Assembly: GCF_000974685.2 (NCBI RefSeq)
Contig: NZ_AP018738.1
Coordinates: 1,984,001-2,048,000, forward strand
Direction of reading: 5' to 3'
Length of the DNA: 64,000 nt
Origin: Ferriphaselus amnicola
GTDB lineage: Bacteria; Pseudomonadota; Gammaproteobacteria; Burkholderiales; Gallionellaceae
Shown here: piece after piece, positions 4,135 through 27,950 of the stretch
Layout: each line of letters begins with the position of its first letter
How positions within the stretch are numbered: position 1 is the stretch's first letter
Position numbers and translations under genes: made by a program
Notes under the pieces: model-generated
Told to the model about the DNA's origin: nothing
The model's input: only the letters and a program-made list of their open reading frames with translations
The model's database searches: none

Positions 4135-4881
4135 ATGCTAGAACTGAACACACAGAGCTCGTCACCGTCTCGCCGTCTAAGTATGGGCATGGCTCGCTAC
4201 CTCTCCGAAGTGGAAGAGGCGCAGCGCCTACGGTACAAGGTATTTTCGGAAGAGATGGGAGCTCGCTTACCCTCCGCCGAAGAGGGCTTGGATCGCGATC
4301 TTTACGACCGTCACTGTGAGCATCTGCTGGTGCGCGATGGCGACAACCACAAAGTCGTCGGAACCTACCGCATCCTATCGCCCTCTCGTGCTCATGCCTT
4401 GGGTAGCTACTATTCTGAAACTGAGTTCGACCTCGACCGGCTAAGCAATTTGCGCAGCCAAATGGTCGAGGTCGGTCGCTCCTGCGTGCACCCAGCCTAC
4501 CGCGACGGAGCCACCATCACCCAACTCTGGGGCGGTCTGGCTGACTACATGGTGCGGAACAAGTATCAATATCTGATCGGCTGCGCCAGTATCGGCATGG
4601 GTGATGGCGGACATTACGCGGCTAGTGTGTTCCAACGTATCTATCAACGGCACGCGGCGCCTTCCGAGTATCGCGTATTCCCACATTGCCCATTGCCGCT
4701 GGCCGCGCTGAATCAGTCACTGGAAGTAAACATCCCGCCGTTGCTCAAAGGCTATTTGCGACTGGGTGCGTATATCGGCGGCGAACCCGCCTGGGATCCT
4801 GATTTCAATACGGCGGATGTATTCATCCTGCTGCCACTTTCGAGGATGAACCCGCGCTACGCAAAGCACTTCATCCGCTGA
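4135..4881 (+). CDS. olsB: GNAT-type N-acyltransferase, OlsB-like
   Basis: This 248-aa protein belongs to the long-chain N-acyltransferase group often labelled hemolysin-like, which includes OlsB (3-hydroxyacyl-ACP to ornithine). Seen here are the early RYKVFSEEMGA block, VVGTYRIL and VEVGRSCVHPAYR, all typical of the group. The ATG at 4135 is preceded by TGGAGG at 4124-4129, which favours it over a TTG at 4123 that would overlap the ribosome site. It lies 94 bases after the OlsA-like gene on the same strand and is closed by a terminator at 4905-4933. Related enzymes use other amines, so ornithine as substrate is inference from the gene pair. Confidence 0.72.
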   Translation: MLELNTQSSSPSRRLSMGMARYLSEVEEAQRLRYKVFSEEMGARLPSAEEGLDRDLYDRHCEHLLVRDGDNHKVVGTYRILSPSRAHALGSYYSETEFDLDRLSNLRSQMVEVGRSCVHPAYRDGATITQLWGGLADYMVRNKYQYLIGCASIGMGDGGHYAASVFQRIYQRHAAPSEYRVFPHCPLPLAALNQSLEVNIPPLLKGYLRLGAYIGGEPAWDPDFNTADVFILLPLSRMNPRYAKHFIR

Positions 4882-5561: not shown

Positions 5562-6287
5562 TCAGTTGGAGCGAGGCGAAGGGGAATCAAGAACCTCCCG
5601 CTCGATCTCTTCGACCGAAGCATGACGCATATCGCGCCCCTTGACTAGATAGATCAAATACTCTGCGATATTCTTGGCGTGATCGCCGATGCGCTCGATC
5701 GCCTTGGCCACGAACAACAGCTCCAACGAAGTCGAAATAGTGCGCGGATCTTCCATCATAAACGTGATGAGGTAACGCATGATGGATTGGAACTCGTCAT
5801 CCACTTTCTCGTCTTGACGCACCACTTGGGCCGCCACATTAAGATCAAGGCGAGCAAAGGCATCGAGGGATTTTCGCAGCATTTCCAGCGCCAACGAGGT
5901 GGCGTATTCAAGCTGACTATAGCGCGGCAAGTAAAGCGAATTGCGTTCAGACAATAAAATGCCCATGCGCGCAATCTTCTTGGCGCTATCGCCGATACGC
6001 TCCAAATCGGTGATGGTTTTGACGATGGTCAGCAACACGCGTAGATCGGAGGCGGCGGGTTGGCGACGAGCGATGATGCGACTGCACGCCTCGTCGATCT
6101 CCATTTCTAGGGTATTGACCTGAAAATCGTTGTCCACGATCACGTTCATCTGGTTAAGGTCGCCCGCGATCAAGGCTGCCATCGCCAGTCTGACCTGACT
6201 CTCCACCAGACCGCCCATTTGCAGCACGCGAGCGCGCACCGCTTCAAGCTCTGCGTCGAACTGCTTGGATGTATGCTCACCTACCAT
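5562..6287 (-). CDS. phoU: phosphate signalling regulator PhoU
   Basis: PhoU couples the PstSCAB importer to the PhoR sensor kinase and keeps the Pho regulon off when phosphate is ample. The 241-aa product shows two PhoU helical repeats, each with an ERIGD motif (ERIGDSAKKIA and ERIGDHAKNIA), which bind metal clusters in the family. ATG at 6287 was chosen because AGGAG at 6296-6300 sits 8 bases upstream; a GTG at 6296 would overlap that site. In many bacteria phoU is the last gene of the pst operon; here it is separate, reads the other way, and has its own Pho-type promoter. No phoB or phoR is in the window. Confidence 0.95.
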   Translation of the reverse strand: MVGEHTSKQFDAELEAVRARVLQMGGLVESQVRLAMAALIAGDLNQMNVIVDNDFQVNTLEMEIDEACSRIIARRQPAASDLRVLLTIVKTITDLERIGDSAKKIARMGILLSERNSLYLPRYSQLEYATSLALEMLRKSLDAFARLDLNVAAQVVRQDEKVDDEFQSIMRYLITFMMEDPRTISTSLELLFVAKAIERIGDHAKNIAEYLIYLVKGRDMRHASVEEIEREVLDSPSPRSN

Positions 6288-6313
6288 GCTAGTCACTCCT
6301 GAAATGATTGGCC

Positions 6314-6347
6314 ATAGTAAGCGTTGGATGTAACAGTTTTATGACAT
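6314..6347 (-). promoter_or_regulatory. PhoB-type promoter of phoU
   Basis: Read on the minus strand, bases 6347-6330 give ATGTCATAAAACTGTTAC, which matches 16 of 18 positions of the E. coli Pho box CTGTCATAWAWCTGTCAY. Ten bases later comes TACTAT (6319-6314) as a -10 element. A Pho box in the -35 position is the usual activator layout for PhoB. The match was scored by eye. Confidence 0.85.
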
Positions 6348-6366
6348 AGGGACAGCCTGCACCGAA

Positions 6367-6400
6367 GTGATACAAAACTGTAATATTATTACGCTATGCT
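6367..6400 (+). promoter_or_regulatory. probable PhoB-type promoter of ppx
   Basis: GTGATACAAAACTGTAAT at 6367-6384 matches about 13 of 18 Pho-box positions, mainly in the second repeat. TATGCT at 6395-6400 follows after exactly 10 bases. It is back to back with the phoU promoter and would give a leader of about 45 bases for ppx. The first repeat is poor, so this is less sure than the phoU site. Confidence 0.55.
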
Positions 6401-6450
6401 GTCGCACTCAAAAATGTAGCCTCAACTCAAGTCACGACTTCGGATCTGCC

Positions 6451-7944
6451 ATGCTCAAATACGCCACCCTTGCAGCGATCGACCTGGGCTCAAACAGCTT
6501 CCACCTAGAGATCGCCCGCGTCATCAACGACCAGATATTTCCGCTCGACACACTGCGTGAGCCGATACGACTGGCTTCAGGGCTGACACCGGACAAGCAG
6601 CTGACCGAAGAAACGCAACAACGCGCTCTGGAGTGTCTAACTCGTTTTGGAGAGCGTCTGCGCCAGTTGCCACAAAGTGCGGTGCGCGCGGTGGGCACCA
6701 ATTCCTTGCGCGTAGCCAAGAATTCACAGGAGTTCTTGCAGCGCGCCGAAGCGGCTTTGGGCTTTCCCATTGAGGTCATTGCTGGGCGCGAAGAAGCGCG
6801 TTTGATCTATTTGGGCGTAGCCAACAATCTGCCGCCCTCGCCGGAGCGCCGCTTGGTGGTGGACATCGGCGGTGGTTCGACCGAGCTCATCATCGGCAGC
6901 GGTACACAACCGGAAAAGCTGGAAAGTCTATACATGGGCTGTGTCAGCTATACCTTGCGCTTCTTCCCTGATGGAGCCATCACCAAGAAATCACTAGCAG
7001 CGGCAGAGCTAGCGGCACGCAATGAGCTGCAAAGCATCGTCTCCGAGTACTCCAATGAGTTTTGGAGCGAAGCCATCGGCTCGTCCGGCACGGCACGTAC
7101 CCTCGCAGGCATCTTGCAGCGCAACGGGTGGTCGGACGGTAGCATCACGCAAGAAGGCTTGATCTCGTTGCGTAATCACCTGCTGAAGATCGGTGACACG
7201 TCCCAGCTGGACAAACTCGGCTTCCGCGCCGACCGCATGCAGGTGCTTCCCGGCGGCTTCGCCATCATGCACGCGATCATGACCGAGCTCGACATCCCGC
7301 GCCTGACCACCAGCCGCTTCGCCCTGCGCGACGGCATCCTGCACGATCTGCTCGGACGCTTCCACGACCACGACGTACGCGATGTCACCGTCAACAACTT
7401 CATGCAGCGCTATCAGGTCGATCTCGCACAGTCGCAGCGCGTGGAATCACTGGCGCAATCGCTGCTGAATGAGCTGACCGCCAACTTGACAGGCAAGCGC
7501 GACGCGCACCACAAGATGCTAGGCTGGGCCGCACGCCTGCATGAGATCGGCTTGTCCATCGCCCACAGTGGCCACCACAAACACGCCGCCTACATCCTGA
7601 GCAACGCCGATATGCCTGGTTTCTCCAACGACGAACAAGGCGCGTTGAGCCGCTTGGTACTAGCGCATCGTGGCTCGCTCAAGAAGATGAATGGCTCGCT
7701 GCAAGGGCATGAGCTCTGGATGCCCGCCTTAGCACTCCGCTTGGCTGCCTTGTTCTATCGCAGTCGTAACGACTTGGCTCTGACAGCTATATCGTTTCAG
7801 GTGAATGAGCAGCATGTGGAACTCGCGCTGAACAAGTCCTGGCTGAAGCGTCATCCGCTCACGTTAGCCGCACTCGAAGCTGAAGTCGCCGAATGGAAAC
7901 AGATCGGCATCCAGTTGAAGTTACGACCTTTGGAAGTCGATTAA
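6451..7944 (+). CDS. ppx: exopolyphosphatase Ppx/GppA family
   Basis: This 497-aa enzyme releases phosphate from the end of polyphosphate chains; some relatives hydrolyse pppGpp. It has the ASKHA-fold phosphate loops AIDLGSNSFHLEI at residues 8-20 and VVDIGGGSTE near residue 138, EAIGSSGTARTL around 210, and a C-terminal HD-like helical region from about residue 310. Length matches full Ppx proteins. ATG at 6451 aligns with the usual N-terminus; an upstream extension in the same frame has no family similarity. It is divergent from phoU and seems to share a Pho-controlled region with it, so polyphosphate use would rise when phosphate is scarce. Confidence 0.93.
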   Translation: MLKYATLAAIDLGSNSFHLEIARVINDQIFPLDTLREPIRLASGLTPDKQLTEETQQRALECLTRFGERLRQLPQSAVRAVGTNSLRVAKNSQEFLQRAEAALGFPIEVIAGREEARLIYLGVANNLPPSPERRLVVDIGGGSTELIIGSGTQPEKLESLYMGCVSYTLRFFPDGAITKKSLAAAELAARNELQSIVSEYSNEFWSEAIGSSGTARTLAGILQRNGWSDGSITQEGLISLRNHLLKIGDTSQLDKLGFRADRMQVLPGGFAIMHAIMTELDIPRLTTSRFALRDGILHDLLGRFHDHDVRDVTVNNFMQRYQVDLAQSQRVESLAQSLLNELTANLTGKRDAHHKMLGWAARLHEIGLSIAHSGHHKHAAYILSNADMPGFSNDEQGALSRLVLAHRGSLKKMNGSLQGHELWMPALALRLAALFYRSRNDLALTAISFQVNEQHVELALNKSWLKRHPLTLAALEAEVAEWKQIGIQLKLRPLEVD

Positions 7945-7958
7945 GTAGCCTCGCTTGA

Positions 7959-7992
7959 CTGTCATCATTCCTTAACACTAGGCACGTAGCAT
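7959..7992 (+). promoter_or_regulatory. probable PhoB-type promoter of the 71-aa gene
   Basis: CTGTCATCATTCCTTAAC at 7959-7976 has a perfect first Pho-box repeat and a weak second one (about 12-13 of 18). TAGCAT at 7987-7992 follows after 10 bases, the same spacing as at phoU and pstS. It lies just after the ppx stop and 34 bases before the small gene. Confidence 0.5.
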
Positions 7993-8025
7993 CTGCTTCG
8001 AGTCAACGTAAACAAGGAGCATAAA

Positions 8026-8241
8026 ATGACCAAGCACGATACTCAACTCGAATACTCGGTACACCCCGACAGCCTGTTCTACGCGGGTTCAGCAGAAGGC
8101 TACGCGTTAGCCAATGCCGCGCCTACCTCATCAAGCTTTGCACTCCGACTAAGGAATATATTTAGACGTATAGCGAAAAACAGCCCCGAGCACACACAAA
8201 CCAACAAGCGGCACAGAGTCGATCGATACGAACGAGACTAA
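8026..8241 (+). CDS. small protein of unknown function in the Pho cluster
   Basis: A 71-aa protein with no family I recognise. AAGGAG lies a normal distance before the ATG, which together with a Pho-type promoter upstream supports real translation. The first 45 residues are mixed and mildly polar; the last 30 are strongly basic (RLRNIFRRIAK, then KRHRVDRYERD). No signal peptide, membrane segment or cysteine pair is visible. It sits between ppx and pstS on the same strand, ending 149 bases before pstS. A role in phosphate or polyphosphate physiology is a guess from context; the basic tail could bind polyphosphate, nucleic acid or a membrane. A chance frame is the alternative. Confidence 0.6.
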   Translation: MTKHDTQLEYSVHPDSLFYAGSAEGYALANAAPTSSSFALRLRNIFRRIAKNSPEHTQTNKRHRVDRYERD

Positions 8242-8286
8242 GCAGCGCCGAATGTCGCTCATCGACAATGAGCAAACGATGGATTT

Positions 8287-8320
8287 CTGTAATAATTGTG
8301 CAACATAAATGTCCTATGAT
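8287..8320 (+). promoter_or_regulatory. PhoB-type promoter of pstSCAB
   Basis: CTGTAATAATTGTGCAAC at 8287-8304 matches about 13 of 18 Pho-box positions, and TATGAT at 8315-8320 follows after 10 bases. The -10 lies 70 bases before the pstS start. A Pho box is expected at this operon in most proteobacteria. Confidence 0.7.
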
Positions 8321-8390
8321 ACGCAGGCTGACTCGACAAACACCTAGCGACAGCAACCGAATTCACACTTAAATACTGGAGAGTAATACC

Positions 8391-9440
8391 ATGACCCTGA
8401 AACTGAATCGCACTCTTGTTGCACTGGGAATTGCCGCCTCGTTCGCATTCACAACGCAAGCCCATGCTGTCGATCTGACCGGCGCAGGCGCGACTTTCCC
8501 CTACCCGATCTATGCCAAATGGGCTGAAGCTTACAAAGCACAGACTGGCGTGGGCATGAATTATCAATCCATCGGCTCGGGCGGCGGCATCAAGCAGATT
8601 TTGGCCAAGACGGTTGATTTCGGCGCAACTGATGCACCGATGACTCCTGAAGAACAAGCTAAGAATGGCCTGACCCAGTTTCCGACCGTGATCGGCGGTG
8701 TGGTTCCGGTCATCAATTTGGAAGGTGTTGCTGCAGGCCAGCTCAAGCTGACAGGCGCAGTGTTGGCTGACATTTATCTGGGCAAGATCACTAAGTGGAA
8801 CGACAAGCGCATCGCCGCGCTGAACTCTGGCATAGCGTTGCCTGACCAAGCCATCACCGTGGTTCACCGCGCAGATGGTTCCGGCACCACTTTCATTTTC
8901 ACCACCTATCTGGCACAAGTCAGCCAAGAGTGGAAGACCACGGTGGGTGCTGACAAAGCAGTGCAATGGAAGACTGGCACCGGCGGCAAGGGTAACGAAG
9001 GCGTAGCATCTTACGTGCAACGTATCAAGGGCGCGATCGGCTATGTCGAATATGCCTATGCGCTGCAAAGCAAGATGAATTTCACCCAACTGGAAAACCA
9101 CAACGGTTTCTTCGTCAAACCGGATGACACCACATTCAAGGCTGCCGCAGCGAATGCCAAGTGGGACAAGGCCAACGGCTTCTATGAGATCCTGACTGAC
9201 GAGCCAGGTAAGGAAAGCTGGCCGATCACGGGCGCTACATTCATCTTGGTCTATAAGACACAGGAGAATGCAGCGAACGGCAAGGAAGTCCTGAAGTTCT
9301 TCGACTGGGCCTATGCTAGCGGCGCAAAGATGGCCTCTGATCTGGACTTCGTTCCTTTGCCAGATAGCGTAGTAAAGCAGATCCGCGAATCTTGGAAAGC
9401 TAACATCAAGGACGCTGCTGGCAAGCCTGTATGGAAGTAA
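8391..9440 (+). CDS. pstS: phosphate-binding periplasmic protein PstS
   Basis: PstS captures phosphate in the periplasm and hands it to PstC and PstA. The 349-aa precursor has a signal peptide of about 26 residues ending in AHA, then the family start DLTGAGATFPYPIYAKW. The phosphate-contact blocks SGGGIKQI and HRADGSGTTFIFT are intact. CTGGAG precedes the ATG at a normal distance. It is the first gene of pstSCAB and is followed by a strong hairpin, which fits the usual need for more binding protein than permease. Length and motifs match the family well. Confidence 0.97.
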   Translation: MTLKLNRTLVALGIAASFAFTTQAHAVDLTGAGATFPYPIYAKWAEAYKAQTGVGMNYQSIGSGGGIKQILAKTVDFGATDAPMTPEEQAKNGLTQFPTVIGGVVPVINLEGVAAGQLKLTGAVLADIYLGKITKWNDKRIAALNSGIALPDQAITVVHRADGSGTTFIFTTYLAQVSQEWKTTVGADKAVQWKTGTGGKGNEGVASYVQRIKGAIGYVEYAYALQSKMNFTQLENHNGFFVKPDDTTFKAAAANAKWDKANGFYEILTDEPGKESWPITGATFILVYKTQENAANGKEVLKFFDWAYASGAKMASDLDFVPLPDSVVKQIRESWKANIKDAAGKPVWK

Positions 9441-25430: not shown

Positions 25431-25577
25431 GATGGACTTAGGCTTTCAGATTGAAAATTAGGAGACTTGCACACTCGAAAAGCAGCCGCTCATAGAGCGT
25501 TTTTCGGCGGCGATTGTAAGGGTTTTGCCATACTGAAGTGTTACTATTTGCCACATCTAACCCAAGGAGACTCTCAC

Positions 25578-27950
25578 ATGAGCGCTCAAGTATTATCCCC
25601 TTCCGAACAGGAACTGAACTCCATCGACGCCTACTGGCGCGCTTGCAATTATCTGGCTGCGGGCATGATTTACCTGCGTGACAACCCGCTACTGAAAGAG
25701 CCGCTCAAACCTGAGCACATCAAGCAACGCTTGTTAGGACACTGGGGTGCCAGCCCCGGCTTGAGCTTCGCTTACGTCCACATGAACCGGCTCATCAACA
25801 AATATGACCAGAGCGCGATCTTTCTCGCCGGCCCAGGTCACGGCGCACCGGGCGTATTGGCTCCGACCTATCTAGAGGGCACCTACAGCGAAGTCTATCC
25901 AAACAAAGGCGAAGATGAAGATGGCTTGCGCCAATTCTTCAAGGATTTCTCATTCCCCGGCGGCATCGGCAGCCATTGCACGCCGGAAACACCGGGCTCC
26001 ATCCATGAAGGTGGCGAACTGGGTTATAGCATCTCGCACGCGTTCGGCGCGGCCTTCGACAACCCTGATCTGCTAGTGACGGTGATGGTCGGCGACGGCG
26101 AGGCCGAGACTGGCCCGCTGGCCACCGCCTGGCACTCCAATAAATTCCTCAACCCGATCCGCGATGGCGCAGTGCTGCCCATCCTGCATCTGAACGGCTA
26201 CAAGATCAACAACCCCACCCTGCTCTCGCGCATCTCGCACGAAGAGCTGGAGAACCTGTTCAAAGGTTACGGCTGGACGCCCTATTTCGTCGAAGGCAGT
26301 GACCCTGCCACCATGCACCGCGCTATGGCGATCACGATGGAGCAGTGCCTGCTGGAGATTCGCCGCATTCAGACGGAAGCGCGCAGTTCCGGCATTCCCG
26401 TCCGTCCGCGTTGGCCGATGATCGTGCTGCGCTCGCCCAAAGGCTGGACCGGCCCGAAAGAAGTGGACGGACACAAGGTCGAAGGTTACTGGCGCTCACA
26501 TCAGGTACCTATGGGCGAAGTCCGCAGCAAGCCGGAACGGCTGGCACAGCTGCAATCATGGTTGAAGAGCTACAAACCTGAAGAGTTGTTCGACGAAACG
26601 GGGCGCTTGCGCCCAGAACTAAAGGCACTTGCCCCCCAAGGCAGCCGCCGCATGAGCGCGAATCCGCATGCCAACGGTGGCTTGCTACGCAAGGCTCTGC
26701 GCATGCCTGATTATCGTCAGTATGCTGCAACTCTGGCCGGCCCCGGCAAGGCATCCGCAGAAAACACCCGCCCGCTGGGCAAGTTCCTGCGCGACATCAT
26801 GGCGCAGAACATGCACAACTTCCGCGTATTCGGCCCGGACGAGAACGCCTCCAACAAGCTCGACAACATCTACGAAGTCAGCAAGAAAGTATGGATGGCG
26901 GACTACCTGCCGGAAGATGCCGACGGCGGTGAACTCTCGCCGGATGGCCGCGTGATGGAAATGCTGTCCGAACACACACTGGAAGGCTGGCTGGAAGGTT
27001 ATCTGCTCACCGGCCGCCACGGTTTCTTCTCCACTTACGAAGCCTTCGTCCACGTCATCGACTCGATGTTCAACCAACATGCCAAGTGGTTGGATATGTC
27101 CAAGGCCGTATCTTGGCGCGCGCCAGTTTCGTCGCTAAACCTGCTTATCACCTCCACCGTATGGCGGCAGGATCACAACGGTTTCACACACCAAGATCCC
27201 GGCTTCCTCGATGTGGTGGTGAACAAAAGTCCTGAGGTGACACGCATCTATCTGCCGCCCGACGTGAACACGCTGCTGGCGATCTCTCAGCAATGCCTGA
27301 CCAGCACCGACCTCATCAATGTGATCGTGTGCGACAAGCAAAAGCACCTGCAATTTTTGGATATGGATGCCGCGATCGCCCATTGCACCAAAGGCATCGG
27401 CATCTGGGAATGGGCCAGCAACGATGACGGCTGCGAGCCCGATGTCGTGATCGCCAGTGCCGGCGATATCCCGACCAAGGAAGCGCTGGCTGCGGTCGTG
27501 CTGCTGCGTGAGCACTTCCCATCGCTCAAGATACGTTTCATCAACGTGGTCGATCTGTACAAGCTGACACCTAACATCGAGCATCCACATGGCTTACACG
27601 AGCGCGATTTCGACAGCCTGTTCACCCTCGACAAGCCCGTGATCTTCAACTTCCACGGCTACCCTTGGCTGATCCACCGCCTCGCCTATCGTCGTAGCAA
27701 CCACAAAAATTGGCACGTGCGCGGCTACAAGGAAAAAGGCAGCATCAATACGCCACTGGAACTGGCCATCCAGAACCAGATCGACCGTTACAGCTTGGCC
27801 ATCGATGTGATCGACCGCATCCCATCACTGCAAGTCGCGGGAGCGCATGTCAAAGACAGACTGCGCGACAAGCAGATCGAGTGCTGCAACTACGCTTACG
27901 AGCACGGGGTGGACTTGCCGGAAGCCAACGACTGGACATGGCCGTATTAA
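25578..27950 (+). CDS. xfp: xylulose-5-P/fructose-6-P phosphoketolase
   Basis: This 790-aa thiamine-diphosphate enzyme splits xylulose 5-phosphate (and often fructose 6-phosphate) with phosphate to give acetyl-phosphate and a sugar phosphate. Family signatures present are GPGHGAPG near residue 90, [26 protein letters not shown] near 135 (only part quoted: [14 protein letters not shown]) and the ThDP-binding GDGEAETGP near 175. ATG at 25578 was chosen because AAGGAG lies 8 bases upstream; the open frame extends further 5' without it. The acetate kinase gene overlaps its 3' end by 13 bases, so the pair forms a short ATP-yielding route from sugar phosphate to acetate. Confidence 0.96.

Follow-up and report, generated by a model that had tools for sequence, protein, structure and literature searches.

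The question raised by this locus is whether a 71-codon open reading frame (ORF) in Ferriphaselus amnicola OYT1, preceded by a ribosome site and flanked by ppx and pstSCAB, is a genuine gene under Pho-type control and, if it is, with which of its neighbours the encoded protein might act. F. amnicola OYT1 is a freshwater stalk-forming iron oxidiser, and its genome consists of one circular contig of 2,717,229 bp (PMC6256698). The window referred to here is the whole stretch of 64,000 nucleotides of this contig that we analysed (NZ_AP018738.1, positions 1,984,001 to 2,048,000), and the relatives used in the family search and for the collection of pstS loci are Gallionellaceae. The names of phoU, the ppx/gppA family gene, pstS, pstC and pstB in the window, of ppk just outside it and of phoB in a second cluster were checked with family models, and pstA was named from its place and by recognition alone. 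PhoR scored over its model cut-off in all three Ferriphaselus genomes compared, and PhoB did so in F. amnicola. The features of the locus are listed in Table 1.

Table 1. Features of the small gene and its neighbourhood in F. amnicola OYT1 (window positions).
Feature	Position	Strand	Basis
Pho-type promoter of the small gene (Pho box 7959–7976; −10 element TAGCAT 7987–7992)	7959–7994	+	Fourth-highest matrix score of the window (17.3)
Ribosome binding site AAGGAGC	8014–8020	+	Read in the sequence; ACAAGGAGC also present in relative G001
Small protein gene, 71 aa, ATG start	8026–8241	+	ORF; equal-length homologue 46% identical; synonymous excess
Separate Pho promoter of pstS	8287–8322	+	Highest matrix score of the window (34.3)
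pstS, first gene of pstSCAB	8391–9440	+	NCBIfam PstS equivalogs over cut-off; 81% identical in G001
ppx (exopolyphosphatase/GppA family), upstream neighbour in F. amnicola, not in G001	6451–7944	+	Pfam Ppx-GppA; TIGR03706 over cut-off
phoU, transcribed away from ppx, with a Pho promoter of its own at 6347 (−)	5562–6296	−	TIGR02135 over cut-off; promoter matrix

An earlier sequence-only reading of this stretch had described a small gene with a good ribosome site between ppx and pstS, and this is what we find, with AGGAG (8015–8019) lying 6 bases 5' of the ATG. It had also named the lack of a homologue, or a broken frame, as the outcome that would speak against a gene; one of the two other Ferriphaselus genomes compared (G001) carries an intact homologue (E 1.3e-14), and in this one relative the result favours a gene. 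The G001 protein aligns without gaps over its 71 aa and ends at the same stop, and its gene also has a ribosome site and shares both the place before pstSCAB and the Pho promoter. Of the 213 gap-free bases, 93 differ between the two genomes (30, 21 and 42 at codon positions 1, 2 and 3, respectively), so that 39 codons encode a different residue, 19 are synonymous and 13 are unchanged. In each of 500 shuffles these substitutions were placed at random; a stop codon arose in 384 of them and none retained the 32 of 71 identical residues seen in the real pair (the maximum was 29). Purifying selection on the reading frame is therefore evident overall (pN/pS 0.54) and is strongest in residues 1–24 (0.37), which are conserved beyond chance, only 3 of 500 shuffles being as good; it is weak in the fast middle region of residues 25–60 (0.70), and residues 61–71, the tail that ends in DRYER, are not significant when taken alone (141 of 500 shuffles as good).

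Codon usage did not set the F. amnicola ORF apart as a typical gene. It scores −0.17 per codon compared with a mean of 0.24 for 231 pieces of real genes, none of which is lower, and its score is equalled or exceeded by 83% of 109 open antisense frames. Among the six frames of this stretch the ORF still has the best codon score, and the copy in G001 (0.12) lies inside the normal range. With codon usage this poor, chance could explain the frame alone, and a score beneath every real-gene piece and within the range of antisense frames speaks for a reading in which the Pho promoter serves a non-coding RNA or leader and the ORF has arisen by chance. We regard this as highly improbable given that the two copies align over 213 bases without a gap, share start and stop and differ synonymously in 19 codons, that both genomes have a ribosome site, and that an Rfam search of window positions 7800–8500 was empty at E ≤ 10. 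That G001 keeps the frame, its length and stop, the ribosome site and the promoter is, as judged from this comparison, not chance. That the gene is coding and has a Pho-type promoter is, as a joint claim, very probable on the sequence evidence, with the codon comparison against antisense frames taken into account.

The promoter part of this claim rests on a 36-base matrix comprising an 18-base Pho box, a 10-base gap and TANNAT. It was built from the best Pho-box match in each of 79 pstS upstream regions from 80 loci in other genomes, of which three regions (L092, L094 and L108) were dropped as apparently misplaced when inspected by eye, leaving 76, and the sequences of F. amnicola and G001 were kept out of the training set. 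On both strands of the window the highest-scoring sites were those of pstS, phoU (26.8, at 6347 on the minus strand), ppx (19.1, at 6367 on the plus strand), the small gene and a phosphoketolase gene (16.3), in that order. One in six million simulated positions reached 17.3 (p approximately 1.7e-7, a coarse estimate). The orthologous site in G001 scores 19.5 and is second only to that of pstS in a 16-kb stretch, and the distance from the start of the Pho box to the ATG of the small gene is 67 and 68 bases in the two genomes. The small gene's site has a Pho box and a −10 element at the same 18 + 10 spacing as the other pstS promoters. The Pho-type promoter proposed by the sequence-only reading is thus borne out by the matrix rank and by the G001 site, and the box begins at 7959, the first position given in that reading.

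Under a stricter Pho pattern (≤2 mismatches), the whole F. amnicola genome yielded four sites, preceding ppk, phoU, pstS and phoB, compared with one for a reversed control; the promoters of the small gene and ppx are too degenerate for this pattern and were not listed. Scanning 7900–8450 for generic sigma-70 promoters gave none, which we attribute to the lack of a −35 hexamer in Pho promoters. The phoU (−) and ppx (+) Pho-type promoters lie back to back and nearly adjoin one another in window 6312–6402, and the same layout is seen in the third genome of the genus, G002 (locus L202, near 4185–4206).

The encoded protein has a conserved N-terminal motif, HDxxxxYSVHPDSLxYAG, and no signal peptide or membrane span was seen in it by eye. 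AlphaFold2, run with the two-row alignment, predicts a single helix at residues 37–51 in the F. amnicola protein and 37–52 in the G001 protein, with a mean pLDDT over residues 41–50 of 85 and 84, low values elsewhere and pTM of 0.28 and 0.26. The helix is amphipathic in both (moments 0.68 and 0.58), marginally so since 5% and 7% of shuffles are as high, and residues 36–52 have a net charge of +5 in each protein. The sequence-only reading had called the C-terminal 30 residues very basic, which is fair as to sign but mild in degree in F. amnicola, where residues 53–71 add only +1.

The protein might act on polyphosphate, as that reading had also suggested, with the cationic helix and tail binding polyanions (polyphosphate or nucleic acid) and aiding the storage or mobilisation of polyphosphate in phosphate shortage. 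The overall charge of the two proteins (net +3 and +8, with pI 9.6 and 10.5 for F. amnicola and G001, respectively) would suit such a role, as would the Pho-type sites at ppk, ppx and phoU in the F. amnicola genome. The almost neutral F. amnicola tail does not, and neither does the gene order elsewhere in the genus. The G001 locus reads superoxide dismutase (minus strand), small gene, pstS, pstC, pstA and pstB, with ppx unlinked on another contig. In G002 (87% complete) phoU and ppx are adjacent with Pho promoters and a DUF748 protein gene follows ppx, and we found neither the small gene nor the pstS that follows it elsewhere in this incomplete genome; the pstS it has is only 47% identical and is like the second pstS of the other two genomes. 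The small gene is therefore present or absent together with this particular pstS in all three genomes, a small sample in which G002 is incomplete, and because G002 keeps phoU–ppx with neither this pstS nor the small gene, the comparison indicates that the small gene goes with pstSCAB and not with ppx. This weakens the proposed action on polyphosphate, and we consider binding of polyanions unlikely as the role of the protein.

As an observation in its own right, a further Pho-type site lies just outside the window (contig 1983443–1983475, minus strand) directly 5' of ppk, and the genes for polyphosphate synthesis and breakdown therefore both appear, from their promoter sequences, to be Pho-controlled.

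We looked for further members of the family with a profile made from the two proteins, which was run on 158 genomes of the family and on samples of 399 genomes of the order and 369 of the class (the three sets overlap; per genome, no more than 14 first-look candidates were scored in the order and no more than 16 in the class). Significant matches were limited to F. amnicola and G001 in the family set and to F. amnicola alone in the order and class sets, so no further members were found in any of the three. The strongest of the weak matches (1.3e-3 in the family and 1.8e-4 in the order) were judged to be noise, and in the class search there were no other matches at or below 0.001. Eight weak-match loci (L113, L118, L141–L144, L148 and L154) were read in translation with their surroundings and none has the YSVHPDSL motif, three containing a stop and one lying in a repeat; the remaining weak matches were judged on score only. 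The lack of a family match noted in the sequence-only reading was confirmed at E ≤ 10, with no Pfam match for either protein and no NCBIfam match for the window protein. Single or weak matches to PHROGs (E 0.22 for the window protein and none for that of G001) and to PDB sequences (two, E 0.55 and 0.99) were dropped, none of 18 pattern matches in viral contigs was confirmed, and there was no match at E ≤ 0.1 in plasmids.

We also searched by position. Among 117 Pho-type sites (score ≥14) in the 80 pstS loci, none is followed, ahead of the first large ORF, by an ATG-started ORF of 35–119 aa that has a ribosome site, and six of the 117 are also without a large ORF. The routine used recovers the 71-aa gene in both Ferriphaselus genomes that carry it, and may miss genes that lie under a chance ORF of at least 120 aa or have a non-ATG start. 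Our literature search found nothing joining Ferriphaselus, phosphate and pstS. Within the range searched, the small gene is, by these sequence comparisons, a genus-restricted orphan. Lineage-specific small proteins under nutrient regulators are common in bacteria, and for this reason the gene is unsurprising in kind. The suggestion that it encodes a new phosphate-starvation small protein holds to the extent that the protein belongs to no known family, the promoter is of the Pho type and the gene is kept in one of two other genomes.

So narrow a distribution, with only two members found, together with the fast middle region and the atypical codon usage in F. amnicola, would also fit a young genus-restricted gene that has settled before pstSCAB with a real promoter and has as yet little or no important function. 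Against this, residues 1–24 are conserved beyond chance, and promoter, ribosome site, length and stop have all been kept; we think it doubtful that the gene is of so little consequence.

As judged from sequence, the comparisons show coding, conservation, a Pho-type promoter and linkage to pstSCAB, and the role that we tentatively favour, as a possibility that falls well short of probable, is one of tuning Pst/PhoR signalling. On this view the gene would be transcribed under PhoB when phosphate is short, and its small, cytosolic product would be made simultaneously with PstSCAB. The predicted cationic amphipathic helix of this product (approximately residues 37–51) would lie against the inner membrane or an acidic surface while the N-terminal motif would bind a partner in the Pst/PhoU/PhoR complex, and this binding would tune how strongly the pump and sensor respond. 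We note that the PhoR linker is only mildly acidic, which does not decide the matter (G002, locus L177, was left out of this comparison because its translation was unusable), and that Pst/PhoR signalling does not generally need the 71-aa protein, since a relative was found in none of the rest of the 158 family genomes.

Feedback of this kind would be analogous to that of the Arg-rich DUF1127 proteins, acting through an unrelated protein. DUF1127 small proteins, including the Agrobacterium SDPs and E. coli YjiS, are described as binding PhoR (PMC12501420), and according to the same source they are, like the 71-aa protein, small, Arg-rich, helical and tied to the control of phosphate uptake. In contrast to them, the 71-aa protein has no DUF1127 match and one predicted helix rather than the two of the predictions in PMC12501420, and its gene has a Pho-type promoter and adjoins pstS. 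DUF1127 (PF06568) was over the cut-off in none of the three Ferriphaselus genomes, a comparison with a weak control since only one of 14 control genomes was over the cut-off. PhoU also has a Pho-type promoter and is encoded nearby, but it is a protein of 244 aa with a clear family of its own, and the small protein matches no PhoU model.

A second known protein offers a different reading, in which the small gene encodes a Pho-induced adaptor that would link a lack of phosphate to (p)ppGpp or growth arrest instead of acting on Pst/PhoR. E. coli YtfK is reported to be an 8-kDa member of the Pho regulon that activates SpoT, and is described as specific to Gammaproteobacteria (PMC6917717). The likeness in size (approximately 8 kDa) and regulon to the protein described there favours such an adaptor, as does the promoter of the small gene being separate from that of pstS. 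However, with Pfam empty for both proteins there is no recognised YtfK domain, the 71-aa protein and YtfK being set apart by family models only, and the gene has stayed linked to pstSCAB where its other neighbours differ, an indication in favour of the transporter. We would give an adaptor of the YtfK kind only a slim chance, and retain the tuning of Pst/PhoR signalling as our tentative preference.

Small proteins that adjust phosphate sensing have been described only recently, in the case of DUF1127 and PhoR in 2025 (PMC12501420), and an orphan with a Pho-type promoter that is linked to pstSCAB in stalk-forming iron oxidisers would offer an easy new test case. Fe and P have been reported in stalks and dreads (PMC4643136), and because the iron minerals that these cells build carry phosphorus, they probably run short of phosphate regularly. 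It is conceivable, if unlikely, that the 71-aa protein is the founder of a new family of small regulators, induced by phosphate starvation and acting on the PstSCAB–PhoU–PhoR complex in stalk-forming iron oxidisers, which would replace control of the DUF1127 type and would suit cells whose iron minerals bind phosphate.

Several further observations were made in and around the locus. Within the untranslated pstS leader, the segment at window 8327–8369 (+) shares 41 of 43 bases with G001 and is far more conserved than the spacer preceding the pstS Pho box, and the leader could contain a post-transcriptional signal. Elsewhere in the window, the fifth-ranked Pho-type site, at 25514–25549 (+), precedes the phosphoketolase gene (25578–27950), a hint that phosphate may regulate this Pi-consuming enzyme. 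The same genome has a second phoU–ppx-like pair (contig 2476199–2477873), 72% and 53% identical to the pair in the window, in which the ppx-like match holds one TAA. Finally, a second pstS (45% identical) lies near phoB–phoR (locus L187, 6724–7755 and 9454–11502), which has a strong Pho-type promoter of its own.
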